The notes below the pieces were generated by a model. That model saw only the letters and a list, made by a program, of their open reading frames with translations. It was not told where the DNA came from and searched no databases. The position numbers and the translations under genes are program-made. This document shows positions 113 to 63,421 of a stretch of 64,000 nucleotides of DNA, one piece after another. Positions within the stretch are counted from its first letter, which is position 1. Each line of letters starts with the position of its first letter. The DNA is from Bogoriella caseilytica (GTDB taxonomy: Bacteria; Actinomycetota; Actinomycetes; Actinomycetales; Actinomycetaceae). The stretch covers positions 1,426,001 through 1,490,000 of the forward strand of contig NZ_RKHK01000001.1 in NCBI RefSeq assembly GCF_003752405.1, read 5' to 3'.

Positions 113-2778
113 GACTCTCCTCCGACCTCGGTTTCGGCGGGCGATTCACTGTCACCCGACGCTACCGTCTCCGCCGCCGACGCGGTTTGCGCAGCGCCGT
201 CTCCGGCGTCAGCGGACGAGCTCTCACCCTCGGCCTCCACGGCGACCTCGGCATCCACCTTGGTCTCCAGGTTCCGGGCCACGGCGATGATCCGATCGTT
301 CTTGTCCGGGCGGGCGAAGGTCACGCCCTGGGTGTTCCGGCCGGTCAGATTGACCTCGGCCACCGCGGATCGCACGATCTTGCCGCCGTTCATGATCACC
401 AGCACCTCATCGGTCTCATCCACGATGAGCGCGCTGACCAGATCACCGCGATCCTCAACGAGGTTGGCCACCTTGATGCCCAGGCCACCGCGGCCCTGGA
501 CGCGGTACTCGCCGACTGCGGTGCGCTTGGCGAAGCCGCCCTCGGTGATGACGAAGACCTGGGAGTCGTCCCGGACGACGTCCATGGAGAGGAGCTCGTC
601 GCCGTCACGGAACTTCATGCCCGTCACTCCCGAGGTGGCCCGGCCCATCGGCCGCAGCGTCTCGTCCGTGGCGGTAAAGCGCAGCGACTGTCCCTTGCGG
701 GACACCAGGAGCAGATCGTCGGAGGAGTTCACCAGCCGCGCGGCAATGACCTTGTCGACCTCACCGTCGATCTCACGCAGGTTGATGCCGATCACGCCGC
801 CACTGCGGGGGGTGTCGTACTCACTCAGGCGGGTCTTCTTCACCAACCCGCGCTGGGTGGCGAGCACCAGGTACTCGGCGCGGTCGTACGCGCGCAGCGG
901 CACCACCTGGGCGATGGTCTCCCCGGGCTGCATCGCGAGCACGTTGGCCACGTGCTGGCCCTTCGCGTCACGGCCACCCTCGGGCAACTCGTAGGCCTTG
1001 GCACGGTAGACCCGCCCGAGGTTGGTAAAGAACAGCAGCCAGTGGTGGGTGGTGGTGACACCGAAGTGCTCGATGACATCGTCCTCGCGGAGCTGTGCCC
1101 CGCGCACGCCCTTGCCGCCGCGGCGCTGCGCACGGTAGTTGTCGACCCGGGTGCGTTTGACGTAGCCGCCACGCGTGACGGTGAAGACCACGTCCTCTTC
1201 CGGGATGAGGTCCTCCATGGACATCTCGCCGTCGAAGGGCAGGACGGTGGTGCGGCGCTCGTCGCCGTGCTTCTCCACGATCTCGGCGAGCTCGTCACCC
1301 ACGATGGAACGCTGGCGATCGGGGCGGGCGAGGATGTCGCGGTAGTCCAGGATCTCGGACTCCAGGCGGGCGTGCCGGTCCACGAGTTCCTGTCGCTCCA
1401 TGGCCGCAAGACGGCGCAGCTGCATCGCCAGGATCGCGTCGGCCTGGAGCTGGTCGATGTCGAGCAGCTCCATCAGGCCGGTGCGTGCTGCCTCGGCGCT
1501 GGCCGACCGGCGGATCAGGGCGATGACCTCATCGAGGGCGTCCAGGGCCTTGAGCTGGCCGTCAAGGATGTGGATCTTGGCTTCGGCGTCGGCCAGGTCG
1601 TAGCGGGTTCGCCGGACGATGACTTCGATCTGGTGGTTCACCCAGTGGCGGATGAAGCCGTCCAGGCTCAGGGTGCGTGGCACCCCGTCCACCAGGGCCA
1701 GCATGTTGGCGGAGAAGTTCTCCTGCAAGGAGGTGTGCTTGTAGAGGTTGTTCAGCACCACCTTGGGCACCGCATCGCGCTTGAGCACGATGACAAGACG
1801 CTGGCCGGCGCGGCCGGAGGTCTCATCGCGCACATCGGCGATACCCGTGAGACGGCCGGCGGCCACCCCCTCGGCGATCTGTTTCTCGGCCAGGCGGTCC
1901 GGGTTGACCTGGTAGGGCAGCTCGGTGACCACCAGGCAGGTGCGGCCCTGGAGTTCCTCGACCTCGACGACGGCGCGCTGCGTGACCGAGCCCCGGCCGG
2001 TGCGGTACATGTCCTCGATGCCGCGGGTGCCGAGGATGGTGGCGCCGGTGGGGAAGTCCGGGCCCTTGATGCGCTGCATGAGCGCGGCGAGCAGCTCTTC
2101 CTTGGTGGCCTCGGGGTTCTCGAGGAACCACTTCACGCCCTCGGCCACTTCGATCATGTTGTGTGGCGGGATGCGGGTGGCCATACCGACGGCGATGCCC
2201 TCGGAACCATTGACCAGCAGGTTGGGGTAACGCGCCGGCAGCACGGAGGGCTCGCGCGAGCGGCCGTCATAGTTGTCGACGAAATCGACGGTGTCCTTGC
2301 CGATGTCCCGGACCATCTCGATGGCGACCGGGGCCAGCTTGCACTCGGTGTACCGCGGAGCGGCCGCGCCGAGGTCGCCGGGGGTGCCGAAGTTGCCCTG
2401 ACCGGTCACCAGCGGCACGCGCATGGCCCAGGGCTGGACGAGACGCACCAGGGCGTCGTAGATCGCGCCGTCACCGTGCGGGTGGTAGTGACCCATGACG
2501 TCGCCGACCACGCGCGCGCACTTGGAGAAGGAGGAATCGGGGCGGTACCCGCCGTCGTACATCGCGTAGAGCACTCGGCGGTGCACCGGCTTGAGCCCGT
2601 CGCGCACATCGGGCAGGGCGCGCGAGACGATGACCGACATCGCGTAGTCCAGGTAGGACCGCTGCATCTCGGCTTGCAGGTCCACCCGCTCGACGTGGTC
2701 ACGTGGGGGGACCACAGCGCCGATCGCGGTCGCCAGAACCTCGGCGGGACCTTCGGTGTTCTCAGGAGGCTGGGTCAC
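109..2778 (-). CDS. gyrA: DNA gyrase subunit A
   Basis: Cytoplasmic type IIA topoisomerase subunit that cuts and rejoins DNA and, with GyrB, introduces negative supercoils. The 889-residue length is normal. The breakage-reunion domain carries the catalytic tyrosine (about Tyr143, in APRYTEC) and the [13 protein letters not shown] segment of the quinolone-determining region. The C-terminal half has beta-pinwheel repeats including the GyrA-box-like [10 protein letters not shown]. The tail is acidic and Ala/Ser-rich. Translation starts at a GTG preceded by GAAAGAGA. It lies 77 bp after gyrB on the same strand and its stop overlaps the next gene. The residue equivalent to E. coli Ser83 is glycine, which is unusual. 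Confidence 0.98.
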
Positions 2779-2855
2779 AACGTCTCTTTCAGTTCGTCAG
2801 TGGCGCGGCTGGAGCTCGGGGCGCGAACGCACCGGAGTGCACTCGCTCTCGACTC

Positions 2856-5057
<2,202 letters not shown>

Positions 5058-5059
5058 CT

Positions 5060-5110
5060 AGTCTAGCGTGCAGACGCCCCGAAGCCTGTATTTCCACAGG
5101 GATTCCCACA
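5060..5110 (-). promoter_or_regulatory. gyrBA promoter -10 and two DnaA-box-like motifs
   Basis: On the minus strand TAGACT (5065-5060) is a good actinobacterial -10 hexamer; no clear -35 is seen. Just upstream, at about 5088-5110, are two half-matching DnaA-box-like motifs (TTTCCACAG and TTCCCACAG, read on the plus strand). The promoter is read from sequence only, and the DnaA sites are degenerate. Confidence 0.4.
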
Positions 5111-5144
5111 GGCGGTGATCGGGGTCTCGCCGGCTGTTGAGCAC

Positions 5145-5807
5145 TCATCCATAGGTGTCGCGCGGACCACGGCCCGGCACCGAACGCAGGCCACGTTTCC
5201 AGCTCGGACCCCCCGGACCAAGCACCGTGATCCGGGTGACCGTTCCCTCGCCGACCTCCTCAGCCAACCGCTTCTCCAGCTGGGGCAGCAGCAGCTGGAT
5301 CTGTGTGGCCCAGGCCGTGGAATCGGCGCGCACCACCAAGGCTCCGCCGTCGAAGTTCTCCACCTGGCAATGGCCGGCGATCTGCTCCCCGACGATCTCG
5401 GCCCACCGGCCCACCACACCGCCCACGCCGACGTCGGCGGTCCATCCGCGCTGCAGGACCAGCCGGGCAGCGATGCCCCCCAGAAGCTGAGGATCGCGAC
5501 GCGACGGGCCAGGGCCGGAGATGCCGTAACCCATGCCCGGACCCGGCCGCCACCGTGCCGGACCAACGGAGCCCTCGCCGTCGTGCAGGTCCTCGTCCGA
5601 GACGTGCTGGTGGCGGGCAAATCCGCCCCGGCGGAGTCGAGGCGGGGCCGCCGGGCGCAGTCCCTTGTCCCGGGCCGCCTGGCGAGCACGCTCCAGAGCC
5701 AGGCGCGCCGCCCGATCTCGGGAGTCTTCCTCCTTGTCGATCGGCACCGCCGGCTGTGCCGCCGAGCCCGGCGCGGCCGGTCGATCCGGCCCCTCAGCTC
5801 TAGTCAC
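5145..5807 (-). CDS. dciA: DciA-like DUF721 protein (predicted replicative helicase operator)
   Basis: 220 residues from a GTG that overlaps the recF stop by 8 bp; a longer in-frame reading exists but would run deep into recF. The N-terminal half is basic, Arg/Ala-rich and probably disordered. The C-terminal half is a DUF721 domain with [17 protein letters not shown], the [18 protein letters not shown] strand and [14 protein letters not shown]. DciA is the ancestral DnaB loader/operator in bacteria lacking DnaC or DnaI. No dnaC/dnaI-type loader is visible in the window, which fits. It belongs to the dnaN-gnd-recF-dciA run. Confidence 0.85.
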
Positions 5808-7023
5808 GGTTGACCACGCCCGCGTTGACACTGAACCGCGCCCCCTGGAGGGCCTCGGGTACATCCTCGGCCACCGCGGCGGTGATCAGCACCTGCTGCG
5901 CACCGGCGACCATCTCGGCCAGCCGCGCTCGCCTGCTGGTGTCCAGTTCAGCGAACACGTCATCCAGGATCAGGATCGGCTCGCCGTCCTCGCCGAAGGC
6001 CTCATCGTCCCGGAGCAGTTCGTAGCTGCCGATCTTCAGGGCCAGGGCGTAGGACCAGGACTCCCCGTGGCTGGCGAAGCCCCGGGCCGGCAGAGTGCCC
6101 AATGTCAGAGCAAGCTCGTCGCGGTGCGGACCCACGAGGGCGACCCCCCGTTCGAGTTCCTTCTCTCGGACGCGAGCCATCGCCTCGATCAACCGCTCAC
6201 GGACGGCGGACTCGTCGAGCAACGCCGTCTCCCGCTCGGCGGCCTGCTCGCGAGCCTCATCTGCGGGAGCCCCGGTGCCACCGAGCAGCTCTGGGCCGGG
6301 ATCCGGAACACCATCAGCGGAATCGATGCTGGCGCGATAGTCGATGCGCGCACCGGAGGCTGCCGAAGACACGCGCTCATAGGCCTGGGCCACATAGGGC
6401 CTCAGTTGGCCCACCAAGCGGGCGCGCGCGTTGGTCAGCTGCGCACCGGCAGCGGCGAGCTGACCGTCCCAGACATCCAGCGTGGACAGGTCCGGTTTGC
6501 TGCCACGCCGTGCCGCCGCACCCGCGGACTTGAGCAGCGCTACCCGCTGGCGCAACACCTTCTCGTACTCCGCGCGCACTCCTGCCAGGCGTGGGCTCAG
6601 TAGCGTGGCGAGGTCGTCGAGGAACCGACGCCTCGTCCCGGGGTCGCCCTTGACGAGCTCAAGATCTTCCGGGGCGAACAGCACGGTGCGCACCAGACCG
6701 AGCACCTCTCGGGTGCGCACCGGCGAGCGGTTCAGTCGGGCCCGGTTGGCCTGACCCGCCACGATCTCCAGCTCGACGACGCTCGGGCGGCCGCCGCGGA
6801 TGACCTTGGCTCGGACCACCGCGCCGGTGCTGCCCTGGCGCACCAGTGCGGCATCGGCGGCGACGCGATGACTGGAGAAGGTGGAGAGGTATCCGACCGC
6901 CTCCACGAGGTTCGTCTTGCCCTGCCCGTTGGGCCCGATGAACGCATTGGCGCCCGGCTCGAGCGCCAGGACGAGTTCGTCGTAGGAACGGAAGTCGTCC
7001 AGGGCGAGGTCAGAGAGGTACAT
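5800..7023 (-). CDS. recF: DNA replication and repair protein RecF
   Basis: SMC-like ATPase that helps RecO/RecR load RecA at gapped DNA. At 407 residues it is normal for actinobacteria. It has Walker [10 protein letters not shown] (about residues 30-38), a signature region around [13 protein letters not shown] and Walker [13 protein letters not shown]. Its start overlaps the end of gnd by 14 bp and its stop overlaps dciA by 8 bp, consistent with one coupled transcript. Confidence 0.96.
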
Positions 7024-7909
7024 CCGTCTGCCGCACCGCGTGCCCTCCGAATTCCTGGCGCAACGCCGCCACAGCTCTCATGGCCGGTGAGGATTCCTGG
7101 CGAGAGGCGAAACGGGCGAACAGCGCGGCCGAGATCACCGGGGTGGGCACCGCCTGCTCGATCGCTTCGAGCAGGGTCCAGCGGCCCTCGCCGGAGTCGT
7201 CCACCCAGTCGCTCAGTTTGCCCAGATCCGGGTCGTCCTCCAGGGCTTTGACCAGAAGTTCCAACAGCCAGGACCGCACCACGGTGCCGCGCTGCCAGGC
7301 TCCCATCACAGTTCCGGGATCAGGAATCAGTTCGGGGCGAGTGGCGAGCAGCTCGTAACCTTCGGCGTAGGCCTGCATGAGCCCGTACTCGATGCCGTTG
7401 TGCACCATCTTTGCGAAGTGGCCTGCGCCGACCGGGCCGGCGTGGACGAAACCCTCAGCTGTGGGGCCATCAGGGCGCAAAGCAGCGAAGACGGGTTCGA
7501 GATGCTGGATGTCGTCCTCGGACCCGCCGGCCATCAGGCCGTATCCGTTCTCCTTGCCCCAGATCCCGCCGGAGACACCGACGTCGACGTAGCCAATCCC
7601 GTGCTCGGCGAGCATCTCGGCGTTCTTGACGTCCTGCACGAAGTGCGAGTTACCGCCTTCGACCACCACATCGCCCTCACCCAACAGGGAGGCAAGTTCG
7701 GTGAGGACGGCCGTGGTGGGCTCACCGGCCGGAACCATGACCCACACCGTCCGGCGCGGGGCGGGCAGAGCAGCCACCAGCGCGGGCAGATCGGGAACCT
7801 CGCTGACCTCGGGATCGGTGTCGTACCCGGTGACCTCGATGCCCCCGTGACGTAGGCGTGCTGCCATGTTGGCACCCATGCGACCCAGGCCGATCATGCC
7901 GATGTGCAT
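7010..7909 (-). CDS. gnd: 6-phosphogluconate dehydrogenase (decarboxylating), short GndA/YqeC type
   Basis: Oxidises 6-phosphogluconate to ribulose 5-phosphate and CO2 in the pentose phosphate pathway. The 299-residue length matches the short, usually NAD-preferring class. The N-terminal Rossmann motif is [13 protein letters not shown]. The substrate and catalytic segment [22 protein letters not shown] is interrupted by no gap; its key residues are the Lys of HFAK and the Asn of HNGIEYG. EGGNSHF is also conserved. Insertion of gnd between dnaN and recF is a common actinobacterial arrangement. The ATG lies 54 bp after dnaN. Confidence 0.93.
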
Positions 7910-7963
7910 CTGCGCCTCCTCGTGAGTGGCGTCCTCGAGGGATCGCCGAACTAGTGGCTTCGC

Positions 7964-9097
7964 TCAGCCGGCAAAGCGGATGGGCATAAGCAGGTAGCGG
8001 AAGCTGGAGTCGTCATCGCCCTCAGCCTCCGCCTGCCCGGTGAGCACCGCGGGCTTCGAGGGATGAGTGAAGGACAATCGGGCATGACTGGTGCTGAGGG
8101 CACCGAGGCCGTCGAGGAAGTAATGCGGGTTGAACGCCGTGGTGATCGGCTCGCCGACCAGATTCGCTTCGAGGGCTTCCGAGGCTTGGGCGTCATCACC
8201 CTGGCCGGCTTCGAGGACCACCTGTCCGTCGCTGAAGGACAAACGGATCGGGGTGTTGCGCTCGGCCACCAGGCTCACGCGCCGTGCGGCGGCGATCAGC
8301 GGCTCGGTGTCAATGACAGCGTGAGTCGTTGTTTCGTCGGGGAAGAGCCGCCGCACCGGTGGGTAGTCCCCCTCGACCAGCAGCGAGGTGGTGCGTCGTC
8401 CTCCGGCCTCGAACCCGACCAGAGCAGGACCGGCGGTGGCATCGGTGCTCAGGGCGACATCGATGGACCCCGCGGAGGTCATGGACTTCGCGACGTCGGA
8501 CAGCGTGCGTGCACGGACCAGCGCGGTCATGCTCGCGGCCGGGTCAGCAGGGGTCCAGGTCAATTCACGGAGCGCGAGCCGGTAGCGGTCGGTGGCGAGG
8601 AAGGTGACCTTCTCGCCCTCGATCTCCACCCGGACGCCGGTGAGCAGAGGCAGCGTCTCGTCACGGCTGGCGGCGATGGTGACCTGACTGACGGCCTCGG
8701 CGAGAAGACCAGCGTCCACCGAACCCGAGAGCTGCGGAATCTGAGGCAAGGCCGGGTAGTCATCCACCGGCATGGTCAGCAGCGTGAAGCGTGAAGCGCC
8801 ACAGGTCAGGGTGATCTTGGTGCCCTCGAGGCTGACGTCCACCGGCTTGGCCGGCAGCGACTTGCAGATGTCCGCCAGGAGGCGTCCCGAGACCAGGACG
8901 ACGCCGGCCTCTTCCACCTCGGCTGCGGTCTCGGACCGGGCCGAGACCTCGTAGTCGAAGGTGGAGAGCACCAGGGATTCGGCGGTGGCCTCAATGCGCA
9001 CACCGGCGAGGACAGGCACGGCCGGTCGCGTGGGCAGGGTGCGAGCCGTCCAGGTGACAGCTTCGGTCAGGACATCCCGTTCGACCCGGAACCTCAC
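7964..9097 (-). CDS. dnaN: DNA polymerase III sliding clamp (beta subunit)
   Basis: 377-residue homodimeric clamp. The GTG at 9097 (product VRFRVERDVLTEAV) was chosen because GAGAGGG lies just upstream and clamp homology starts there; an in-frame ATG at 9139 would add 14 unrelated residues. Clamp features include RFTLLTMPVDDYPALP, VTFLATDRYRLA and the C-terminal LLMPIRF ending. It is transcribed away from oriC in the order dnaA-oriC-dnaN. Confidence 0.97.
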   Translation of the reverse strand: MRFRVERDVLTEAVTWTARTLPTRPAVPVLAGVRIEATAESLVLSTFDYEVSARSETAAEVEEAGVVLVSGRLLADICKSLPAKPVDVSLEGTKITLTCGASRFTLLTMPVDDYPALPQIPQLSGSVDAGLLAEAVSQVTIAASRDETLPLLTGVRVEIEGEKVTFLATDRYRLALRELTWTPADPAASMTALVRARTLSDVAKSMTSAGSIDVALSTDATAGPALVGFEAGGRRTTSLLVEGDYPPVRRLFPDETTTHAVIDTEPLIAAARRVSLVAERNTPIRLSFSDGQVVLEAGQGDDAQASEALEANLVGEPITTAFNPHYFLDGLGALSTSHARLSFTHPSKPAVLTGQAEAEGDDDSSFRYLLMPIRFAG

Positions 9098-47190: not shown

Positions 47191-47345
47191 CCGTCCACAG
47201 CTTCTGGCCCCTGTGGAAGTGGCGTAGTGGCCGGAACCGGCGAGTCCGTGCCGGTTCTCCCACAGGTTTGTCCCCAACCTGTGCACAAGGGTGTGGGCAG
47301 GGTCCACAGGGCGTCCACAGGATACGACCGCTCCGTGCACAGGGC
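47191..47345. promoter_or_regulatory. MATE/dnaB control region with clustered TCCACA motifs
   Basis: The 346-bp divergent gap 47173-47518 has no gene. Within 47191-47345 are CCGTCCACAG (47191-47200), CTGTGGAAG (47211-47219), TTCTCCCACAGG (47255-47266), GTCCACAGG (47302-47310), CGTCCACAG (47312-47320) and GTGCACAGG. Several resemble the degenerate DnaA boxes of oriC (CCGTCCACA at 9248). DnaA binding is inferred. Confidence 0.4.
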
Positions 47346-52626: not shown

Positions 52627-53214
52627 ATGCCACGCGCCTCTGCCGCAGCGGCCGCTGCTACCGCTCGAGAAGTCCTCGCTGCCGCGCGGGACCTGTTCGC
52701 AAGCCGCGGCTTCGCTCAGGTGTCGCTCGATGACGTGGCGCAATCAGCCGGAGTGACGCGTGGAGCCGTCTACCACCACTTCGGGAGTAAGCAGGGGTTG
52801 TTCCGTGCCGTGGTGGCCCAGCTCCAGGCCGAGGTCGCGGCAGCTGTCCTCGCAGCGGCCGAGTGCGCCGGCGACGATCCGGTCGCACAACTGCGTGCCG
52901 GCAGCCATGCCTTCCTCGAGGCGACCACGCACCCCTCGGTCGCTCGCATCCTGCTCATAGACGCCCCGGCGGTCATCGGTTGGCAGGAGTGGCGTGAACT
53001 CGACGCCCAGCACTCAGGCGCCCACTTGCGCGAGATCCTGGTGCAGGCAGGGGAGGCGCAGGTCAGCGCCGAGCCCCTTGCGGTCCAGCTCTCGGGGGCG
53101 ATGAACGAGGCAGCGCTCTGGCTGGCTCAGCGCCCGGGCGATTCCGCAGCGAGTCAGTCGGCGCACGGAGTACTCGATCGTCTTCTCGCTGCGGTCCACG
53201 CGCCGGGTGAGTAG
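52627..53214 (+). CDS. TetR/AcrR family transcriptional regulator
   Basis: 195 residues. The N-terminal helix-turn-helix is FAQVSLDDVAQSAGVTRGAVYHHFGSKQGLF with the hallmark Tyr-His-His-Phe; this is followed by an all-helical ligand domain with WLAQRPGD near the end. AAAGGAAG precedes the ATG. It probably represses itself and the divergent VOC gene through the inverted repeat. Ligand unknown. (Motif positions: about residues 26-56.). Confidence 0.9.
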   Translation: MPRASAAAAAATAREVLAAARDLFASRGFAQVSLDDVAQSAGVTRGAVYHHFGSKQGLFRAVVAQLQAEVAAAVLAAAECAGDDPVAQLRAGSHAFLEATTHPSVARILLIDAPAVIGWQEWRELDAQHSGAHLREILVQAGEAQVSAEPLAVQLSGAMNEAALWLAQRPGDSAASQSAHGVLDRLLAAVHAPGE

Positions 53215-53295: not shown

Positions 53296-56064
53296 GTGGA
53301 CACCCCTGGTCAGCACACTGAGCTCACCGCCGAACAGGACCTCGCCCCCTGGGCGAGCAGTCCTCACGAGGTCATGTCCGCGATGGAGTCCGAGGAACGG
53401 GGCCTGGCCACCACCGAGGCGGAACGCCGCCTCGAGGAGCACGGCCCCAACCGCCTCGCGCCCCCGGAGCGCGACCCGCTCTGGCGCCGGATCCTCTCCC
53501 ACTTCGATGACGTGCTCATCTATATCTTGCTGGTGGCCGCCGCGCTGAAGGCCATCCTGGGCGACTGGGTCGACTTCTCCGTCATCCTGGCCGTGGCGGT
53601 CATCAACGCCGCCATCGGATTCATCCAGGAGGGGCGCGCCGAGAAGGCACTCGACGGCATCCGGCACATGCTTTCGCCCACCGCGCAGGTACGGCGCGAC
53701 GGCGCGTGGTCGGACGTCGATGCCGCGGACCTCGTGCCCGGCGACGTCGTGCGGGTGGGCGCGGGCGCGCGCGTGCCCGCCGACGTGCGCCTGCTCGAGG
53801 CGCGATCGCTGAACGTGGAGGAATCAGCGCTCACGGGCGAGTCGGTCTCGGCGGAGAAGTCCGTGGCCGCCGTCGACGCCGAGGCCGGCCTGGGTGACCG
53901 CACCAGCATGCTGTTCTCTGGCACCCTCGTCGCGGCCGGCCAGGGCACCGGCGTCGTCACCGCCACCGGGCAGGCCACCGAGATCGGCCGGATCCAGACA
54001 ATGATCGCCGAGGTCGAGTCCCTGGAGACGCCGCTGACCCGTGAACTCGGGCGCCTGGGGAAGGTCATCGCGGTCGCCATCGCGGTGATCGCCCTGGTCA
54101 TGGCCGTGGTGGGCCGGACCGTCCACGACATACCCCTCCCGGATCTGATCTCCGCGGCTATCGGCGTCGCCGTCGCCGCGGTGCCCGAAGGCCTCCCCGC
54201 GCTGGTGACCATCACTCTGGCCCTGGGGGTGCAGCAGATGGCCCGGCGGCACGCCATTACCCGCAAGCTCCCGGCGGTGGAGACCCTCGGCGCGGTGACC
54301 ACCATCTGCTCGGACAAGACCGGCACCCTGACCAAGAATGAGATGACCGCGCGGGTGGTCCGCACCGCTTCGGGCAGCTTCGCGGTCGAGGGCAGCGGCT
54401 ATGCCCCGGTCGGCGACATCGCCCCCGAAGACGGCGGGGAGAGCGCCACACCGGACGCCGCATTGGACGGCGTCGTCGCCGTGGCGATGGCCTGCAACGA
54501 CGCGCAGATCCTGCACGACGAGGCGCGCGGCTGGCAGCTCGTGGGCGAGCCCACCGAGGGCGCGCTGCACAGCCTGGCCCGCAAGGCCGGACAGGACCCG
54601 GAGAACTGGCGGCGCCTGAACTCCCTACCGTTCTCCTCCGAGACGAAGTACATGGCCACCCTCGACGAGGACCGCGAGGGCCACACGCACATCCACGTCA
54701 AGGGCGCGCCCGACCGCATCCTCACCCGCTGTGCCACGCAGATCGGCGCCGACGGCGACGCCGTCCCCCTGGAGAGCGAGCGCTGGGAGGAGTGGATCGA
54801 GGAGCTGAGCGCTCGCGGTCTGCGCGTGCTCGCCACCGCCCGTGCCACGGCGCCGGCGGGAACGACCGAACTCACCACGGAGGATGTGGAGAGCGGGCTC
54901 GAGCTGTGCGGGATCGTCGGCATCGTCGACCCGCCCCGGCCCGAGGCCATTGAGGCGATCGCCCAGTGCCGGCAGGCCGGAATCCGGGTCAAGATGATCA
55001 CCGGCGACCACGCCGGCACAGCGCTGGCCATCGCCCGCGAGATGGGCATTGTGACCGACGAGCGCCGGCAGGAAGAGGAGACCGCAGAGACCGAGGCCCC
55101 CGCGGTGCTCACCGGAGCGGAACTCGAGGCGATGAGCACCGAGCAGCTGCGCGCCGTGGTGCGAGACGTCGACGTCTTCGCCCGCACCAGCCCCGAGCAC
55201 AAGCTCCGCATCGTCTCCGCGCTCCAGGCCCACGACGAGGTCGCGGCCATGACCGGCGACGGCGTGAACGACGCCCCCGCCCTGGCCCAGGCCAATGTGG
55301 GCGTGGCCATGGGCATCAAGGGCACCGAGGCCACCAAGGAGGCCGCCGAGATCGTCCTCGCGGACGACAACTTCACCACCATCGAGCGGGCGGTGGAGGA
55401 AGGGCGGCGGATCTACGACAACATCCGCAAGTCGGTGCTCTTCCTGCTGCCCACCAGCGGCGCGCAGGCCCTGGTGATCCTCGTGGCCGTCTTCCTCGGC
55501 CTCCAGCTCCCCCTCGCGCCCGTGCAGGTCCTGTGGATCAACCTGATCACCGCGGTCACGCTCTCCCTGGCCCTCGCCTACGAACCGGCCGAGCCCGACA
55601 TCATGAACCGGCCACCTCGGCCGGTGAAATCCGGCATCCTCACCGCTCATTACGTGGTGCGGATCGCCATCGTGTCAGTGCTCATCGGCGGCATCACTCT
55701 GGTGGCCTTCTACAGCCTGGTGGGTGCGGGCACGCCGACCGCGCAGGCCGAGACCACGGCGGTGACCCTGCTGGCCTTCGCCCAGCTGGCCTACTTGTTC
55801 AGCTGCCGCTACCTCGACAAGTCCAGCCTCACGCCGAAGGTGTTCCGCGGGAACCGGGTCATCTGGATCTCCGCCGGGGCGTTGCTCGTGCTGCAGAGCG
55901 TGTTCGTCTACGCGCCCTTCATGAACCTGTGGTTCGGCTCCGCCCCCATCACGCCCGCGCAGTGGGGTCTGGTGGTGGGCCTGTCCCTCGTGGTCTTCCT
56001 GCTCACCGAGCTCGGCAAGGCCGCCCAGCCACGGATCGCCAGGGTGCTGTTGCGGCGGGGGTGA
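53296..56064 (+). CDS. Cation-transporting P-type ATPase (P2 type)
   Basis: 922 residues with about ten membrane helices. Actuator loop [10 protein letters not shown], phosphorylation site [13 protein letters not shown], nucleotide-binding KGAPDRI, hinge [12 protein letters not shown], helix-4 [16 protein letters not shown] and helix-6 [16 protein letters not shown]. The helix-4 PEGLPA motif is that of Ca2+- and Na+/K+-type pumps. Helix 6 lacks the Asp of Ca2+-ATPases (NLVTDGLPA), so the transported ion is uncertain. GTG start with GAAAGGA upstream. Confidence 0.92.
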
Positions 56065-56437
56065 CCTCGGACTGCCCACACACCGCGGGATTCCGCCGGT
56101 AGGCAACCGGCTCGCCGTCGGCCTTGAGGCCCCTTCACACCCTGCTGCTCCGGGTTCACGATGGGGCCGCGAACGTCTGCGGGAGGCGCGACAACGCCGA
56201 CCACCACATCGCCTTCCTGATGGACCCCGAAGGGCCATTCACCGCCAGCGATGTCGAAACCCAGGAGAACCAGGCACGCAAGGGCGCTCCGCTGCCTTAC
56301 AAGGAACCGCCTGCTGGCCTCTCTCCTGACCACCGTCAGGAGAACAACAAGTAAATCAGACGTAGGTCGCCCACTTCCTTGACTCCCGCTAAGTGAGAGG
56401 CGTAGCCTCCACGCATCAACGAAACAAGAGGGTTCTT
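56065..56437. other. Intergenic stretch before the accessory cassette
   Basis: 373 bp with no recognised gene. A 76-codon plus-strand reading frame (56124-56354; ends SPDHRQENNK) has no ribosome site or recognisable domain and could be a gene remnant or chance. The composition becomes less GC-rich from about 56340, marking the left edge of the cassette. Confidence 0.4.
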
Positions 56438-56872
56438 GTGTTGTCATCAACTAGGCGTTCATTCTCTCTGCTGGTGACTGCTGTGGTCATGGTGCTTGCG
56501 CTGCCCACGGCGGTCCAGGCGGTCACGGTGGGTTACAACTATCAGATGGGATCCCTGTCGTCCGCAACGCTCAATCGAATCCCGGCAAGCAGTTCCGGCG
56601 ACTGGACAATGCCCGCCCGAACATCTTCGGGTCGAGTTCAGAGTGATGTCTATGGCTGCCCGCACTCGGAGGCTACGTACGAGATGCAGCTCCGACGCCA
56701 CCGTGCGTTCTTGCCGGATGCGATCGAATACCACCTCTTTGGGAGAGAATACTGTCTGGATGCCGCAGTCACCAACTCGGCTTCGTGGGCGGCGGGCCAG
56801 TATCACTTCGGGGTAATGCCGCTTCAGACGCCAGCATTTACCGGGCTCGGGTATTCTCAGGTCGAATGGTAG
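56438..56872 (+). CDS. Secreted protein of unknown family
   Basis: 144 residues from GTG 56438 (AAGAGGG upstream). A clear Sec signal (SLLVTAVVMVLALPTAVQA) is followed by a mature part of about 116 residues with only two cysteines (YGCPHSEAT, REYCLDAA), many aromatics, and the end GLGYSQVEW. I recognise no family. Lower GC than the neighbours. Its stop overlaps the ABC ATPase start, making it the first gene of a four-gene coupled set. It could be a bacteriocin-like product, an immunity factor or a substrate of the transporter; all are guesses. Confidence 0.75.
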   Translation: MLSSTRRSFSLLVTAVVMVLALPTAVQAVTVGYNYQMGSLSSATLNRIPASSSGDWTMPARTSSGRVQSDVYGCPHSEATYEMQLRRHRAFLPDAIEYHLFGREYCLDAAVTNSASWAAGQYHFGVMPLQTPAFTGLGYSQVEW

Positions 56873-57672
56873 ATCCTGGCGCACTGAATGAGTCCTACAA
56901 CAGACGGTTCGTAAGTAGAGAGGGTGGGACTGACCTGTCCCCGTTGCTGGAAGTGCGGTCTCTCCGTGGCGGATATCGTGGCCGCGAGGTGATTCGCGGA
57001 CTAGATCTTGCAATCTCAGGGCTGACGCTACTCATTGGTCGCAATGGGGCCGGCAAGACGACGCTGCTGCGGCTTCTTGCAGGTGATCTCATCCGGGCAG
57101 CAGGTGATGTCGCCTTCAGCGGCGCACCCGAGGGTGACCGCCCGGTCATTGGGTATCTGCCGCAGACGCTCACCCTGCCGTCGCACTTGAGCGTCAAGGA
57201 GTTCGTGACCTACGCCGCCTGGCTCCAGGGCCAAGCGAAGTTCGAGGCGAACGAGCGCGCGGTGGAAGCGATCGAACAGGTCGATCTCGCCGACCGTAGC
57301 GCTCATCGAATCGGTCGACTGTCAGGAGGCATGCAGCAGCGCTGCGCACTGGCCGCAGTCCTGGCTGGGAACCCCGCGGTGCTCTTGCTCGACGAGCCCA
57401 TGAACGCTCTCGACCCCATTCAGCGTGATGGGCTTATCGCGTTACTGAGTCGACTCAGCGACGCGATGCCGGTGATGATTTCCACACACGTGGTCGATGC
57501 GATGGCGGTTGACGCGAATCGGATTGTACTGCTCGATGATGGTCGCGCGCAGTTTAGTGGTAACCCTGCGGCACTGTGCGCGCCTCACGACCTCACCGTT
57601 GAGGCACTTAACCGGGCCATTCTCGAGCGCATGGCCATGGACCCGACCGCCGACCCAGGTGGTCCTGCGTGA
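56866..57672 (+). CDS. ABC transporter ATP-binding protein
   Basis: 268 residues from ATG 56866, overlapping the secreted-protein stop; a start after the RBS-like GAGGGTGGG near 56920 is possible. Complete ATPase: Walker A GRNGAGKTTLLRLL, Q-loop YLPQTLTLP, signature LSGGMQQRCALAAVLAG, Walker B AVLLLDEPMNALDP, H-loop ISTHVVD. Short exporter-type (CcmA/NatA-like) ATPase, fitting an ABC-2-like permease. It is coupled to the next gene by a GTGA overlap. Confidence 0.9.
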   Translation: MVDPGALNESYNRRFVSREGGTDLSPLLEVRSLRGGYRGREVIRGLDLAISGLTLLIGRNGAGKTTLLRLLAGDLIRAAGDVAFSGAPEGDRPVIGYLPQTLTLPSHLSVKEFVTYAAWLQGQAKFEANERAVEAIEQVDLADRSAHRIGRLSGGMQQRCALAAVLAGNPAVLLLDEPMNALDPIQRDGLIALLSRLSDAMPVMISTHVVDAMAVDANRIVLLDDGRAQFSGNPAALCAPHDLTVEALNRAILERMAMDPTADPGGPA

Positions 57673-58877
57673 TCGGCATATTTTTACGAAACCGCGCCAA
57701 TCTCGCGCTGGCCGCGGCGGGCACTGTCGTTGCGACGTACTACGCCCACTCGAATTCCCTCTGGATGGGTGAGGTCAACTCGGCACTGCAAATGGCAGCG
57801 ACCGCTTCGGTGCTGATGAACCCGCTGATGACCGCCACGCTGGCAGTGGCCTCAAAGAGGATGTTCGATGGCAGCTTGCGGTTTATCGAGAAGGACCCAG
57901 GGCGAGCGCGCATGGCGCGGTTGTCTGCGTATGTGGGCTTCGTGGCGCCTTTTCTGGGCGGCTACCTCGCTCTGACGCTTCTCTTGTTGGCTTCAAGTAC
58001 CTTGCATGGATCGCTCCAAGGTCTTGAGCCAGCACTCTTTTTCATGGGAGCCGGATCCATCGCCATGTGGGCGGCTATCGCCGTGATTGCCGGTTCTCGC
58101 CTCCCCCTCGTCGTCGCCGTGCCTTCGCTCATGGTGGCCAGCTTTCTGTTGCCTGTCTACGCCGGGAGCGAGCCGGACACTGTGGTGAGTGTCTTCACTC
58201 CACTGTCGTCGGTGGGCTTTCCTTCGCTGTTTGAAATCCAGTCGCACGTCATCATGGCCCAAGCCGTCTGGTTCATCTCTCTCGCTGCGTTGGGGGTGCA
58301 GTTTTTCCTCCGTCCCCCCGGTGCGCCTGGGACTTCGTCGCGCTTGGCGTGGGGTGTGTGGGGGATCGTGGCGTGCGGAGCGGTGGTGTCTGGGGTCTTG
58401 CTCCTGAACTCTGAAGGCGCGCGTTTCACGGAACGAGCTATCGGCGTCGAAGACGCGGAGTGCCAGGTGGTCGGCGCGATCGAGGTCTGCCTTTATCCCG
58501 AGAACGCGGACGTCATGGATGACGTAGCCAGCGTGATCGCCGAGATCACTGCAGACGCTCCTGCCGGGGCGTTTCCTCCCCTGGTGACAGAGCCCGGGAT
58601 GGACGACGGCGCGACAGTGGTTCTGCCCTCCCGCCCAGCGCTACACCCGACGACCGTTGCGCAGAACCTCATACAGCCCTTGTCGTCCTGGGGCGTGTGC
58701 GATGAGTGGCTCGCGGATTACGGCGATGACTACCACCTCCGGCGGGAATGGTTGTGGGATCGCTCGGGGTATGCCACGGCAGTAGGCTCCGCTCCGGCCC
58801 TCGCTGAGATCAGTGACCTCCCGGAAGACGAGCAATGGCAGTGGTGGCTCGAGCCGATCGCGCACTGCGGCGCATGA
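57669..58877 (+). CDS. ABC-2-like membrane protein with extracytoplasmic Cys-containing domain
   Basis: 402 residues. About six membrane helices in the first 250 residues, with the cytoplasmic stretch SKRMFDGSLRFIEKDPGRAR, followed by an extracytoplasmic domain of about 145 residues. That domain has four cysteines, in ECQVVGAIEVCLYPEN and WGVCDEW...HCGA, suggesting two disulfides. The VCLYPEN motif recalls a VCVWPEH-type motif I associate with actinobacterial transporter-linked membrane proteins, but that is memory, not a search. Function probably the permease partner of the adjacent ATPase. Confidence 0.75.
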   Translation: MIGIFLRNRANLALAAAGTVVATYYAHSNSLWMGEVNSALQMAATASVLMNPLMTATLAVASKRMFDGSLRFIEKDPGRARMARLSAYVGFVAPFLGGYLALTLLLLASSTLHGSLQGLEPALFFMGAGSIAMWAAIAVIAGSRLPLVVAVPSLMVASFLLPVYAGSEPDTVVSVFTPLSSVGFPSLFEIQSHVIMAQAVWFISLAALGVQFFLRPPGAPGTSSRLAWGVWGIVACGAVVSGVLLLNSEGARFTERAIGVEDAECQVVGAIEVCLYPENADVMDDVASVIAEITADAPAGAFPPLVTEPGMDDGATVVLPSRPALHPTTVAQNLIQPLSSWGVCDEWLADYGDDYHLRREWLWDRSGYATAVGSAPALAEISDLPEDEQWQWWLEPIAHCGA

Positions 58878-59527
58878 CAACGCGGTCCGTGGTCGAACCT
58901 CTGTGGGTGCTCGTGCGGGTGCGTCACCCCGCGTACACCGTGGGGGCACTTGCAGCGATCACCGCGGTCACGACCGCGCTTTGCTCGGTACCCCTTCCGG
59001 GGGCACAGTCCACCGGCGACATCTACCCGCTGGCGTACATGGTCGCGCCAATGTTCCTCCCCGTCGTCGTGGCACTAGGGCTTGTTTCGCCTGCGGCGTG
59101 GATCGAGCAGCAGGCCCGGCGCCGCGGTTGGCTCACGCTCTACTCAGGCATCGTGTGCCTAGCGGCTGTGCTTGCCGTGTTGCCATCAGCCGTCGCAGCA
59201 CATGCATTTGGCTCACCGACTGACGTGAGCCCCGCGCAGTCGAGGAATCTCGCAGACTTCGTCGGCGGTAACGCCGAGAACGCTCTGGTGAGTGTCGGTC
59301 TCACCCTGATCTGTCTTCGCTGGCTCAGCGTGACCTGGGCGTGGGCGCTCCCCACTGTGCTCGTGCTGGCGGGCGTGCTCACGCCACTGCCACTTCTGAG
59401 CTTGCTGGTGAACCATGAGACCTCCGGGTCACACCTGGCGATCGGAGTCGGCTTGCTCGTCAGCGGGTTGGCCCTGCAATGGCGATCGGGGGCGGCGCCC
59501 TTACGGCGATCGTCGCCACCGTGCTGA
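58874..59527 (+). CDS. Small multi-pass membrane protein of the ABC cassette
   Basis: 217 residues from ATG 58874, overlapping the previous stop (ATGA). About six hydrophobic helices and no recognised domain; one conserved-looking loop (AHAFGSPTDVSPAQSRNLADFVGG) lies between helices. Probably a second membrane subunit of the transporter. The C-terminus is short and basic (QWRSGAAPLRRSSPPC). Confidence 0.7.
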   Translation: MTTRSVVEPLWVLVRVRHPAYTVGALAAITAVTTALCSVPLPGAQSTGDIYPLAYMVAPMFLPVVVALGLVSPAAWIEQQARRRGWLTLYSGIVCLAAVLAVLPSAVAAHAFGSPTDVSPAQSRNLADFVGGNAENALVSVGLTLICLRWLSVTWAWALPTVLVLAGVLTPLPLLSLLVNHETSGSHLAIGVGLLVSGLALQWRSGAAPLRRSSPPC

Positions 59528-59831: not shown

Positions 59832-60119
59832 GTGTCCTGGGTCGAGGCGGTTCTCGCCGGCGTCGCCGTGCTCCTGGTGATCAATCTGCTCGCGGCCTTC
59901 GCTGCGGTCGCGCGGGCGCGGCACACCGCGGGCTGGCTGCTGGTCGTGCTGCTCACCGGTACCACCGGTGCGGCCGTGGCCGCCTTGCTGGCCGCTCTGT
60001 CGGAGAACCCGGGACGCTTCCTCGACGTCGCCCTGATCCTCGCCGGTTTCGCCGCCCTGACCGCGGCCGTGCGCGTCGCCGCAGGCAGGCGGCCCGCCAC
60101 CGACGCTGTGCAGCGGTGA
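59832..60119 (+). CDS. mnhF: Cation:proton antiporter subunit F (MrpF/MnhF-like)
   Basis: 95 residues, three hydrophobic helices. Small subunit of multi-subunit Mrp/Mbh-type antiporters. GAGGAGG precedes the GTG. It overlaps the next gene by four bases. Identified by size, topology and order before a clear subunit G. Confidence 0.75.
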   Translation: MSWVEAVLAGVAVLLVINLLAAFAAVARARHTAGWLLVVLLTGTTGAAVAALLAALSENPGRFLDVALILAGFAALTAAVRVAAGRRPATDAVQR

Positions 60120-60409
60120 TCGCCGTGCTTCTCGACCTCGCCACCGCCGTGCTGGTGCTCGCCGGCGCCTTCTTCTTCACGGCCGGAACAGCCGGGTTGA
60201 TCCGCTTCCCCGGGGTGCGCAACAAGCTGCACGCCCTGACTAAGGCGGACAATCTCGGGCTCGGCCTGGTGCTGGCCGGGGTGGCACTCCACCTCGGCAG
60301 CTGGGCTTGGGCCGGGCTGCTGCTCCTGACCTGGCTGCTGGCGCTCGGAGCCGCGGCGGCCTCGGCGCATCTGCTCGGTGGCCTCGACGCCCAGGACGCG
60401 CCCCGGTGA
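60116..60409 (+). CDS. mnhG: Cation:proton antiporter subunit G (MrpG/MnhG-like)
   Basis: 97 residues with three helices and the family motif GLIRFPGVRNKLHALTKADNLGLGL (core RFPxxxxKLHAxTKAxxLG). Overlaps both neighbours (GTGA). Confidence 0.88.
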   Translation: MIAVLLDLATAVLVLAGAFFFTAGTAGLIRFPGVRNKLHALTKADNLGLGLVLAGVALHLGSWAWAGLLLLTWLLALGAAAASAHLLGGLDAQDAPR

Positions 60410-61392
60410 TCCCCGCTCTCGATCCGGCCCACGCGCCGGAAGCCCTCGACGTCGCCCTCGGCCTGGCCCTGTGCGTGACGGCCGCGCTCGCGCTGATCCC
60501 GCGGTCACGCCTGGCCCAGTCCATGGCCTTCCTCGGCCTGGGTGTGCTGATGACCCTGACTTGGCTGCGGCTCGGCAGCGTGGATGTGGCCCTGGCCGAG
60601 GCTGCGCTCGGCACGGGGCTGTTGAGCGCGCTTCTGGTGTGGTTGGCCGCCCGCGGGCGGCCGCGGCCCGGGCCGGACGCCGCACCAACCGCAGCCGCTT
60701 CCGAGGCCGGCGGGCCTCGGCGTTTCCTGGTGCCGGCGCTCGGCGTCCTCGCAGGCGCGGTGGCGGCTCTGATCGTGCTGGGCGTGTGGTCGCGCGCCGA
60801 ACTCCTCCCGCCGCAGTGGGGAGAGCCGCTCGCCGAGCAGATGGACGGCACCGGCGTCACCCACGAGATCACCGGGGTATTGCTGTCCTTCCGCGCCTAC
60901 GACACCCTGCTGGAATCAGCGGTGCTGATGTTCGCCGCCGTCGCCGTGCTCGCCCTGGGCCGCGACGACGGATTCCATGCGCTGCGGGTCAGCGCGCCGG
61001 CCATGCCGAGCACTTTGCGCTGGCTGGTGCGGGCCACCGCTCCGGTGTTGCTTCTGCTCGCTTTCTGGCTGCTGGTGGCCGGCAGCTCCCAGCCGGGCGG
61101 GGCCTTTCAATCCGGCGCCGTGCTGGCGGGCCTGCTCATCCTATTGCGGGTCGCGCAGGTGCCGGTCAACCGCAGGGTCATCCGGGCGCTGCCGGCGCTG
61201 CTGGTGGCGGGGGTGATTGCTTTCCTCGCCGCCGGCCTGCTCGGCCCGGCCATGGGCCAGGCCTGGCTCGCCTGGGATCCGGCCTGGGCCTTCGCCGCGG
61301 TCTTCAGCATCGAAGTGTTGCTGACCTGCGGGATCGCCGCGGCCCTGTCGCTGCTCTATCTCGCCCTGGAGAACCCGGTGGGTGCGCGGTGA
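60406..61392 (+). CDS. DUF4040/MbhD plus MnhB fused antiporter subunit
   Basis: 328 residues. The first part (helices to about 85, with VALAEAALGTGL) resembles the MbhD/DUF4040 domain. The second part from about 190 has the MnhB-like ATAPVLLLLAFWLLVAGSSQPGGAFQSGAV. It thus unites subunits that are separate in Mbh complexes (D, E and F). Starts at a GTGA overlap with mnhG. Confidence 0.8.
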   Translation: MIPALDPAHAPEALDVALGLALCVTAALALIPRSRLAQSMAFLGLGVLMTLTWLRLGSVDVALAEAALGTGLLSALLVWLAARGRPRPGPDAAPTAAASEAGGPRRFLVPALGVLAGAVAALIVLGVWSRAELLPPQWGEPLAEQMDGTGVTHEITGVLLSFRAYDTLLESAVLMFAAVAVLALGRDDGFHALRVSAPAMPSTLRWLVRATAPVLLLLAFWLLVAGSSQPGGAFQSGAVLAGLLILLRVAQVPVNRRVIRALPALLVAGVIAFLAAGLLGPAMGQAWLAWDPAWAFAAVFSIEVLLTCGIAAALSLLYLALENPVGAR

Positions 61393-61796
61393 CGGGCGCC
61401 GCAGCCGCCGCCGGCTGGTACCTCGCCATCGGGGTGGTGATCGCGCTCGCGGGCCTGGTGCGCTTGCTCCTCGGGCGGGATCTGGTGGCCCGGCTCATCG
61501 CCCTGAACGTCACCGGTATCGGTTCACTGATCATCCTGCTGGCCCTCGGAGCCCGCGAGGAGCCGACCGACCCGGTGCTCTCCGCGCTGGTGATCACCGG
61601 GCTGGTCATCACGGTGGCCTTTACCGGCCTCGGAGCGGTGCTGATCCGCCGCATCGAGGGTGAGGAGGACGCCGAGGCCGGCGCCACCGAGGCGGCCGAA
61701 GTCGAGAGCGCACCGCCAGCGCACACCCCGCCGGACAGCGCCCCGGCGGAGCGCGCGCGGCCGGAGCGCCGTCCGCGAGAGCAGGAACCGTCATGA
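61389..61796 (+). CDS. mnhC: Antiporter subunit C (MnhC/NuoK-like)
   Basis: 135 residues with three helices homologous to NuoK (ALVITGLVITVAFTGLGAVLIRRI), then a 45-residue charged Pro/Glu/Ala-rich tail not usual for the family. GTGA overlap with the gene before and ATGA overlap with the gene after. Confidence 0.85.
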   Translation: MTGAAAAAGWYLAIGVVIALAGLVRLLLGRDLVARLIALNVTGIGSLIILLALGAREEPTDPVLSALVITGLVITVAFTGLGAVLIRRIEGEEDAEAGATEAAEVESAPPAHTPPDSAPAERARPERRPREQEPS

Positions 61797-63421
61797 CCCT
61801 CGCGCAGTTCACCCTCGGCGCCCTGCCCCTCGGTCCGCTGCTCGCTGCGGCGATCTCGGTGCTGCTCGCGCCTCGGGCGCGCCGGGTACTCGGCCTGATG
61901 ACCGCCGCCGGCGTGCTGGTGCTGGCCGGCTACCTCACCGTGATCGTGGCCGGAGGCGAGGCCGTCGCACTCCCCCTGGGCGGTTTCCTGCCACCGCTCG
62001 GCATCGTGATCCGGGCCGATGGGCTCTCGGTGCTCTTCCTGTGCCTGGCCGCGCTGGTGGGCGCCGCGGTGACGGTCTACGCCGCCGCCCTTCCGCAGAC
62101 CACCGGAGAACGGCTCCGCACCCCGGCCGCCTCCAGCGGAGAGGCGCCCGCGCCGCGCTGGCAGCCTGGGCACCCCGCCTTCTGGCCACTCTGGCTGGGC
62201 TGCTGGGCCGGCCTGAACGGCGTCTTCGTGGCCGGGGATCTGTTCAACACCTACGTGGCCCTCGAGCTCGTGGGCCTGTGCGCGGTCGCGCTGGTGGCCC
62301 TGGGCGGCAGCCGTGCCTGGGCGCCGGCGCTGCGCTACCTCTTCGTCGCGGTGCTCGGATCGCTGCTGTTCCTCATCGCCGTCGGGTTGCTGGTCTCGGT
62401 CACCGGCAGTCTGGACTTCGCCCAGGTGGCTGAGCGCCTCGCGCAGAGCCCCGAGACCCACCCCGTGGCGCTGACCGCGCTGGCCCTGGCCACGCTCGGC
62501 CTGGCGGTGAAGTTCGCGCTGGTGCCGCTGCACCAGTGGCTGGTGCCCGCCCACGCCGGGGCCGCCAGTGCGATCTCCCCGCTGCTCTCCGCGCTGGTGA
62601 TCAAGGCCGCGCTGTTCGTGCTGCTGCGCTGCTGGCTCTGGGTGGTGGGCCCGGGCGTCACCGACAGCGTGCCCGACGGCGCGACGTCTGCGTCCCTCGA
62701 TGCCCTGGGCCTCATGGCGTGGATCCCGGCTCTGATGGGTGCGGCGGCGGTGGTGCTCGGTTCCGTCATGGCCCTGCGCCAGGATCGCCTGAAGCCGCTG
62801 GTGGCCTACTCCACGGTGGCGCAGGCAGGCTACTGGACGCTGCTGTTCCCCGTGGTGCTGGGCCCCGGTGCGGATCTCGGCGACGACGGCTGGGCGGCGG
62901 GCCAGCTGGCCGACCAGGACGTCTTCGCCGCGGCACTGGGGGGCACGGTGGCGCTGGCCATCGGGCACGGCCTGGCCAAGGGCGCGATGTTCCTGGTGGC
63001 CGGCACCTTCAAGGAGCTCTACGGCACCGACGAGATCTCCCGGCTGCGCAGCGTGGCCCGGGAGCACCCCCTGCTGGTGATGACCGCGGGACTCGCGGCC
63101 GTCGGCCTGGCCGGCCTGCCGATCTCGCTCGGCTTCACCGGCAAGTGGGAGCTCGCCACCGCCGCGGTGGCGGCCGGGCATCACTGGATCCTCGCGGTCC
63201 TGGTGATCGGCACCCTGCTCAGCGCCGCCTACCTGCTGCGGATGATCGCGCCGCTCCTGGTGGAATCCGTGGACGAGGAACGGATCGAGCCGCCGGCCCG
63301 CCGGCTTCCGTCCCTCCCGCTGGCGGCCCGCGTCGCGCCCTTCACGCTCGGTGCCCTCACCGTCGCCACCGGCTTCCTCGGAGTGTGGATGGCGCGACTG
63401 CTGGAGGTGGGCGCACCGTGA
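61793..63421 (+). CDS. mnhD: Proton-conducting antiporter subunit D (MnhD/NuoN-like)
   Basis: 542 residues with about 14 helices of the complex I antiporter-like family. Conserved ion-path residues are seen in FNTYVALELVGLCAVALVAL (Glu), KFALVPLHQWLVPAHAGA (Lys), LKPLVAYSTVAQAGYW and HGLAKGAMFLVAG (His/Lys). Moves protons coupled to cation antiport in the assembled complex. Confidence 0.92.
   Translation: MTLAQFTLGALPLGPLLAAAISVLLAPRARRVLGLMTAAGVLVLAGYLTVIVAGGEAVALPLGGFLPPLGIVIRADGLSVLFLCLAALVGAAVTVYAAALPQTTGERLRTPAASSGEAPAPRWQPGHPAFWPLWLGCWAGLNGVFVAGDLFNTYVALELVGLCAVALVALGGSRAWAPALRYLFVAVLGSLLFLIAVGLLVSVTGSLDFAQVAERLAQSPETHPVALTALALATLGLAVKFALVPLHQWLVPAHAGAASAISPLLSALVIKAALFVLLRCWLWVVGPGVTDSVPDGATSASLDALGLMAWIPALMGAAAVVLGSVMALRQDRLKPLVAYSTVAQAGYWTLLFPVVLGPGADLGDDGWAAGQLADQDVFAAALGGTVALAIGHGLAKGAMFLVAGTFKELYGTDEISRLRSVAREHPLLVMTAGLAAVGLAGLPISLGFTGKWELATAAVAAGHHWILAVLVIGTLLSAAYLLRMIAPLLVESVDEERIEPPARRLPSLPLAARVAPFTLGALTVATGFLGVWMARLLEVGAP

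Follow-up and report, generated by a model that had tools for sequence, protein, structure and literature searches.

A small secreted protein encoded directly before an ABC transporter raises the question of what the two do together. The gene considered here, P0001, lies at positions 56438 to 56872 of a window of 64,000 nucleotides (the whole stretch of DNA that was analysed) from Bogoriella caseilytica. An initial annotation had described its product as an orphan secreted protein that acts with the transporter, as its substrate or sensor. The best overall explanation that emerged from our analysis is that P0001 belongs, as the secreted partner, to an ABC cassette that was probably acquired horizontally, and that it is bacteriocin-like and accompanied by a protective exporter; we consider this explanation to have about an even chance of being correct.

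Organization of the cassette

A compact cassette of four genes begins with P0001, in the order secreted protein (P0001), ABC ATPase (P0002), permease (P0003) and second membrane protein (P0004). The features of the locus are as follows.

56124..56354, + strand: short ORF immediately before the cassette, possibly what is left of a DUF4913 gene (PF16259, E 4.1e-4, 20.9 bits, cut-off 25)
56426..56432, + strand: AAGAGGG, ribosome-binding site of the P0001 gene, read from the sequence
56438..56872, + strand: P0001, secreted two-cysteine protein of 144 aa, first cassette gene (reading of the open frame, profile matches)
56866..57672, + strand: P0002, ABC ATPase (PF00005, E 1e-25), start uncertain (ATG 56866, or CTG 56935 / TTG 56944)
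57669..58877, + strand: P0003, permease of 402 residues (permease profile, whole-length hhalign comparison, model and fold search)
58419..58874, + strand: DUF7224-like C-terminal domain of P0003 with its lead-in, residues 251-402 (hhalign)
58874..59527, + strand: P0004, second small membrane protein of 217 aa, its ATG overlapping the P0003 stop (hhalign against the third-gene family)

The open frame of the P0001 gene runs for 144 codons from GTG 56438, with a spacing of 5 bases between AAGAGGG and this codon. An alternative in-frame GTG upstream, at 56393, would give a protein of 159 aa. No promoter was found in a scan for the sigma-70 type. At the N-terminus of P0001, RR is followed by a hydrophobic segment, residues 10-26, with a mean hydropathy of 2.34, and then by AVQA, where the cleavage site was placed by eye; residues 1-28 are thus the predicted signal peptide and residues 29-144 the mature part. 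This mature part has 116 residues with exactly two cysteines (C74 and C106, precursor numbering) and the C-terminus YSQVEW, and no lipobox can be read in the sequence. The signal peptide, the length of about 116 residues, the two cysteines and the YSQVEW end had all been described before, and reading the sequence anew confirmed them.

Among the four cassette proteins, only P0002 had a meaningful family match in Pfam and NCBIfam. Walker A, Q-loop, LSGG, Walker B and H motifs can be read in it, and it was the best match in the window to a profile of cassette ATPases (E 2.7e-57). Its matches in a defence library were rejected as generic ATPase matches. Starting at ATG 56866, P0002 would overlap the P0001 stop codon (56870-56872). 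Its homologous part begins at about 56940, and CTG 56935 and TTG 56944 are preceded by a far better ribosome site at 56917-56929. Since the ATPase start is ambiguous between 56866 and 56935/56944, the translational coupling of P0001 with the ATPase proposed earlier is possible and not established, and it is not usable as an argument for joint action. Clear overlaps occur elsewhere in the cassette, between ATPase and permease (57669-57672) and, as ATGA, between permease and P0004 (58874-58877).

The cassette genes have a G+C of 0.59-0.66 and a GC3 of 0.67-0.76, against 0.70-0.74 and 0.89-0.93 in the P-type ATPase and Mrp-type genes on either side, so that the cassette appears as a G+C dip between its flanks. 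Low composition occurs elsewhere in the window as well, in a TetR gene (GC3 0.76) and in a gene at 47291 (G+C 0.65). From these sequence features, a foreign origin of the four-gene cassette by horizontal acquisition is likely, not proved. On one side (53296-56064) the cassette is bordered by a gene for a cation P-type ATPase, itself preceded by a TetR gene, and on the other by Mrp-type antiporter genes (59832-63421). Between 50000 and 64000 of the window, neither tRNA genes nor flanking repeats of note were found. The short ORF at 56124-56354, which resembles the end of DUF4913 below the cut-off, is a possible mobile-element remnant.

Relatives of the cassette

Searched against its own genome, P0001 matched its own gene only, and the genome of the window thus holds one copy. 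Among 200 genomes of its taxonomic family, own gene aside, eight weak matches appeared (E 3.6e-4 to 0.0087), 7 of them broken by stops, and there was no match among plasmids and phages. P0003 matched nothing besides itself in the 200 family genomes, gave two short matches in 396 genomes of the phylum, none in genome contigs in a pattern-led scan, and a single one at E 7 among plasmids.

The route to relatives was P0002, for which five plasmid matches out of at least 40 were inspected. Four of these five loci have the order ATPase, permease, small membrane protein, and the fifth, from Arthrobacter, has another permease kind. A Kitasatospora plasmid (L027) carries a small secreted protein, ATPase, permease and small membrane protein in the order of the window; a Streptomyces globisporus plasmid has the same four-gene order, with the small gene unannotated. 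The permeases of these two plasmids match DUF7224, one below the cut-off and one just over it. DUF7224 was then searched for in the taxonomic order of the window, with matches in 4 of 198 genomes (1 over the cut-off), and in the family that holds Streptomyces, with matches in 13 of 101 (10 over the cut-off).

A scan with a permease alignment gave 48 named loci, mainly from Streptomyces and Kitasatospora, with one from Streptosporangium and one from Phytoactinopolyspora. At many loci, the secreted genes before the ATPase share a pattern consisting of ESRRW, GC, PD, YC and G.YYF, with W or Y as the last residue. One member of this family (L054, E 1.7e-25) comes from the window's own order and lies immediately upstream of an ATPase. 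One full-text search of a collection of papers returned none mentioning DUF7224, and the titles and abstracts listed for secreted bacteriocins contained nothing on the cassette.

P0001 as a divergent member of an unnamed secreted family

With a profile built from 11 foreign sequences, P0001 scored 14.7 bits and ranked first, the best of 5000 shuffles of its mature part reaching 9.1 bits. Run against the 590 ORFs of the window, this profile again placed P0001 first (E 0.0011; next 0.4). Wider profiles kept it first by a narrower margin (11.8 vs 10.7 bits, and 11.9 vs 11.5 bits for the widest, each with 5000 shuffles). A profile of four relatives ranked it third among itself and 2000 shuffles, two shuffles scoring higher, and the family profile at E 1e-4 missed it in its own genome. 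By hhalign, the secreted protein obtained 13-41%, and 60 shuffles obtained at most 1.2%. On the rank against shuffles, the rank among window ORFs and hhalign, a chance ORF was rejected.

The neighbouring genes gave matches of their own. P0003 was the best window match to a profile of 52 foreign permeases (E 1.1e-14; next 0.029), with hhalign values of 97% for the whole protein and 57.6% when its C-terminal domain was taken by itself (no higher than 2.9% in 60 shuffles). P0004 reached 18.2% against the third-gene family by hhalign (60 shuffles, at most 2.6%), and by hmmsearch alone it was not significant (E 1.9). The case for the family is carried by neighbouring genes that agree in the same order, the weaker scores being individually open to doubt.

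Conserved positions point the same way. P0001 keeps 7 of the 10 columns that are invariant in 34 relatives, both cysteines, a W, a P and a D included, and has lost an E, a D and a T. The last residue is W or Y in 39/39 members of the main set, and W in P0001; the mature part has exactly two cysteines in 37 of the same 39. In a distant set (L140-L145) the last residue is other than W or Y. In the C-terminal domain of P0003 (cysteines at 265, 274, 344 and 400), four cysteine columns are invariant in 24/24 relatives, and the aligner puts three of the window's cysteines there. P0003 had no match to the DUF7224 model (PF23866) at E up to 10, nor was any found in its own genome at E 0.001; its resemblance to DUF7224 permeases arises through the wider permease profile only.

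When 35 aligned members were compared with Pfam and NCBIfam, no meaningful match resulted, with 4 and 3 families, respectively, listed at E up to 1. By these comparisons, the two-cysteine secreted family is unnamed and found in neither library. Lactococcin 972 family membership was rejected, no lactococcin 972 model being among the families returned for the 35 members; both libraries presumably contain such models. Taken together, these sequence comparisons indicate that P0001 very probably belongs to the cassette and to this secreted family, as a very divergent member. The term orphan used in the initial annotation no longer applies, as profiles of foreign sequences give P0001 a family.

Linkage of the secreted protein to the transporter

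When the search started from the secreted protein instead, matches at E 1e-4 appeared in 1 of 296 genomes of the phylum and in 16 of 195 genomes of the Streptomyces-holding family, the latter at 24 places. An ATPase or permease lies within 3.3 kb at 22 of the 24 places, including five with the permease alone, where the ATPase is found further down. Many of the 24 were already in the profile via the transporter; among places less than 80% identical to transporter-found members, 9 of 11 are linked. The two unlinked places correspond to one gene in two identical copies near both chromosome ends (L130 and L136), and 10.5 kb around one of these copies held no cassette gene. The variant loci L141-L145 have the order secreted protein, permease, second membrane protein, ATPase, and their secreted proteins have a short non-aromatic tail.

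The 22 places that adjoin the same ABC genes bear out the earlier view that P0001 goes with the transporter, and the link between secreted protein and transporter is supported by these sequences. Homologues with an enzymatic role in other genomic settings would have spoken against that view; a search for them turned up only the unlinked gene in its two copies, which does not overturn it.

From the transporter side, a recognisable secreted gene (E <=0.001) is present in 28 of the 48 loci, three of which (L071, L090 and L091) match part of the profile only. Two or three secreted genes occur at 10 of the 48. In the other 20 loci no such gene was recognised. Among these, the first profile partly matches L079 (E 0.0005), no ATPase was seen in L077, and L094 has little upstream sequence. 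A rough scan of the 20 loci for other secreted ORFs picked out lipoprotein-like genes in L079 and, in L088, one four-cysteine candidate encoded on the opposite strand. Some of the 20 may have members that the profile misses, or that lie past the contig end.

The position before the ATPase can also be occupied by another protein. A second secreted family, with four cysteines, is found there beside sister DUF7224-type transporters in L027, L028, L063, L065, L066 and L067, the L066 cassette looking degraded. Its genes in the first two loci are as follows.

L027, 3563-3916: four-cysteine secreted gene
L027, 6708-7187: four-cysteine secreted gene, second copy, behind the operon
L028, 3575-3922: four-cysteine secreted gene, unannotated

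By profile comparison (0.36%), the four-cysteine and two-cysteine families are unrelated. Since an unrelated family fills the same position, this transporter type appears to pair with different secreted proteins. The L027 cassette (882-8729) is flanked on both sides by a transposase (WP_331741728.1) and a hypothetical protein (WP_331741731.1), in the manner of a composite transposon.

Predicted structures

The model of mature P0001, computed with 35 sequences, has nine strands and no helix; confidence in it is moderate (mean pLDDT 67.5, pTM 0.64). Foldseek ranked a chain of an accessory secretory protein first, at E 7.6e-4 and a TM-score of 0.39. Other fold matches were jelly-roll or sandwich folds with Z up to 8.5 and identities of 4-16% among the matches listed; they include CBM6, CBM35, CBM36, GOLD, TNF-like and virus capsid proteins and the C-terminal domain of Clostridium perfringens enterotoxin. 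The Lcn972 structure was absent among the matches listed, which excludes nothing. These folds point to a binding protein and to nothing more specific.

The model argues for a binding-type fold rather than an enzyme, and P0001 was rejected as an enzyme on this fold together with the lack of a family match of weight. In line with the earlier statement that P0001 is not an independent enzyme, it does not look like one, with 35 members lacking a meaningful enzyme family match and an all-beta model. Matches by sequence to the PDB were taken as chance (P0001 against an acylase, E 0.051; family profile, E 0.94).

P0003 was modelled with an ABCG-like membrane core (about 1-221), such as would be expected in a type V (ABC2/ABCG-like) exporter, a seventh long helix at 222-248 and a C-terminal domain at about 264-402, with low confidence at 306-374. 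The best 50 fold matches listed for the core are ABC exporters (ABCG, ABCA, ABCH and NosY, with three titled "ABC transporter") at Z 11.5-13.5, values that helical bundles can reach by arrangement alone. Foldseek alone was weak on P0003 (E 0.89). The helix at 222-248 would place the C-terminal domain outside, and we infer from the model that this domain lies there.

Evolutionary rates and distances

Ten close pairs, some of which share sequences, allowed 16 comparisons; dN/dS was higher for the secreted protein than for the ATPase in 14 of these and equal in 2. The C-terminal permease domain exceeded the ATPase in 9 of 10 pairs, again with shared sequences, and tied in 1. In the trio L082-L084 the secreted protein is under ordinary constraint (dN/dS 0.08-0.19). 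Over 24 cassettes, secreted-protein distances track those of the permease membrane part beyond the ATPase, with a partial correlation of 0.32 that was reached by 0/2000 permutations; the C-terminal permease domain was not singled out by the distance correlations in the same 24.

Possible functions of P0001

The reading that we favour, by analogy with lactococcin 972, is that P0001 is a secreted antagonist accompanied by a self-protection exporter; we rate it as a serious candidate, a little short of even. P0001 would be secreted by Sec and would fold outside as a disulfide-closed beta sandwich. With a Sec-type signal, its secretion would not depend on the transporter. P0001 would then act as a bacteriocin-like protein on the envelope of related bacteria. 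The exporter may recognise P0001, or its target complex, through the permease and clear P0001 from the producer's own membrane or wall, by which the producer would be protected, as proposed for the lactococcin 972 cluster.

The Sec signal, a copy number that varies, loci with the transporter alone, a scattered occurrence and the low G+C give the system the look of a bacteriocin with ABC protection. The fast evolution of the secreted protein, as judged by dN/dS, and the second, unrelated secreted family at the same position also count in its favour. Moreover, the transporter often occurs without the secreted gene and the secreted gene rarely without the transporter, an asymmetry like that of toxin and immunity. 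The extra copies and the transporter-only loci fit an effector with its protection better than a dedicated subunit or sensor. Weighing against an antagonist are the divergence of P0001, the missing lactococcin 972 profile match, the constrained trio, distance correlations that are not specific to the C-terminal domain, the single copy in the genome of the window, the moderate confidence of the P0001 model and the cassettes with a sigma factor.

Two alternatives that leave out killing by P0001 or make it part of the transporter appear unlikely to us. In the first, P0001 would be a ligand that is read by the transporter and reported to gene regulation, as in transporter-based antimicrobial sensing. 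The cassettes with a sigma factor suggest signalling of this kind: in L025 (2518-6689) and L026 (2371-6680), an ATPase-permease-membrane protein cassette carries, in place of the secreted protein, genes for a sigma factor and a zf-HC2-type protein immediately upstream of the ATPase (L026, which has no annotation, was read by its likeness to the annotated L025). The conserved C-terminal domain of the P0003 type, with its four invariant cysteines, is also consistent with a sensor. The window cassette itself is without a regulator, however, the nearest being the TetR gene at 52627-53214, beyond the P-type ATPase gene, and tandem variable copies of a ligand would need explaining.

In the second, P0001 would stay on the outside face of the transporter as an accessory subunit needed to export or extract another substrate, and this we hold to be no more probable than a sensor. 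Tight gene linkage and the correlation with the permease membrane part would suit such a subunit. A dedicated subunit is at odds, though, with 20 of 48 transporter loci lacking a recognisable secreted gene, with two unrelated families and varying copy numbers in the same position, and with the absence of a lipobox from P0001. It is improbable that P0001 is a lectin-like module that binds carbohydrate or wall while its neighbour exports wall material, with no antagonism, as CBM6, CBM35 and CBM36 do occur among its fold matches but jelly-roll matches at Z of about 8 are generic and extend, at the low identities given above, to TNF-like, GOLD and virus capsid folds.

Returning to the antagonist with its protective exporter, it is quite possible, though less likely than not, that the locus belongs to a wider, undescribed modular antagonism system of actinobacteria. 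Interchangeable disulfide-stabilised proteins from at least two unrelated families would be combined with the same kind of exporter, whose four-cysteine outside domain would be protective, and transporter-only copies would act as stand-alone immunity. If this holds, a function would be gained for a secreted family absent from Pfam and NCBIfam and for the adjoining DUF7224-type transporters, and a new class of proteinaceous antagonists would be added in genera known mainly for small-molecule antibiotics. Whatever the function, the gene family and its close tie to one transporter are new leads.

Comparison with known systems

In LanFEG systems, an ATPase and two membrane proteins are encoded beside a secreted antimicrobial, and LanF carries a Glu-loop. 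Unlike LanF, P0002 has Gln in its Q-loop, by reading, and unlike the LanFEG systems the window has a secreted protein with a Sec-type signal. Against TIGR03740, P0002 scored 92.4 bits, below the cut-off of 309.75 for LanFEG. With the DUF7224 permeases (PF23866), P0003 shares a C-terminal domain that aligns with the wider permease family and has four cysteines.

The lactococcin 972 cluster offers a parallel. There, lcn972 is accompanied by orf2-orf3 as putative ABC immunity genes (PMC4055356), and another report gives the Lcn972 fold as a beta sandwich (PMC9964109). As with lactococcin 972, the cassette has a small unmodified secreted protein beside putative ABC genes (PMC4055356), its beta fold being predicted here. 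It differs from that cluster in sequence, with no match among the 35 members, in the two conserved cysteines, in its permease, which is of another kind and has four cysteines in a C-terminal domain, and in the extra membrane protein.

A second parallel is the transporter Mr10EFGH of enterocin MR10/AS-48, which is described as common to different enterocins and as also occurring as an orphan, with a role in resistance reported from earlier work (PMC10598978). The proteins and hosts differ, and in both cases one kind of transporter is found with different secreted proteins and also alone.
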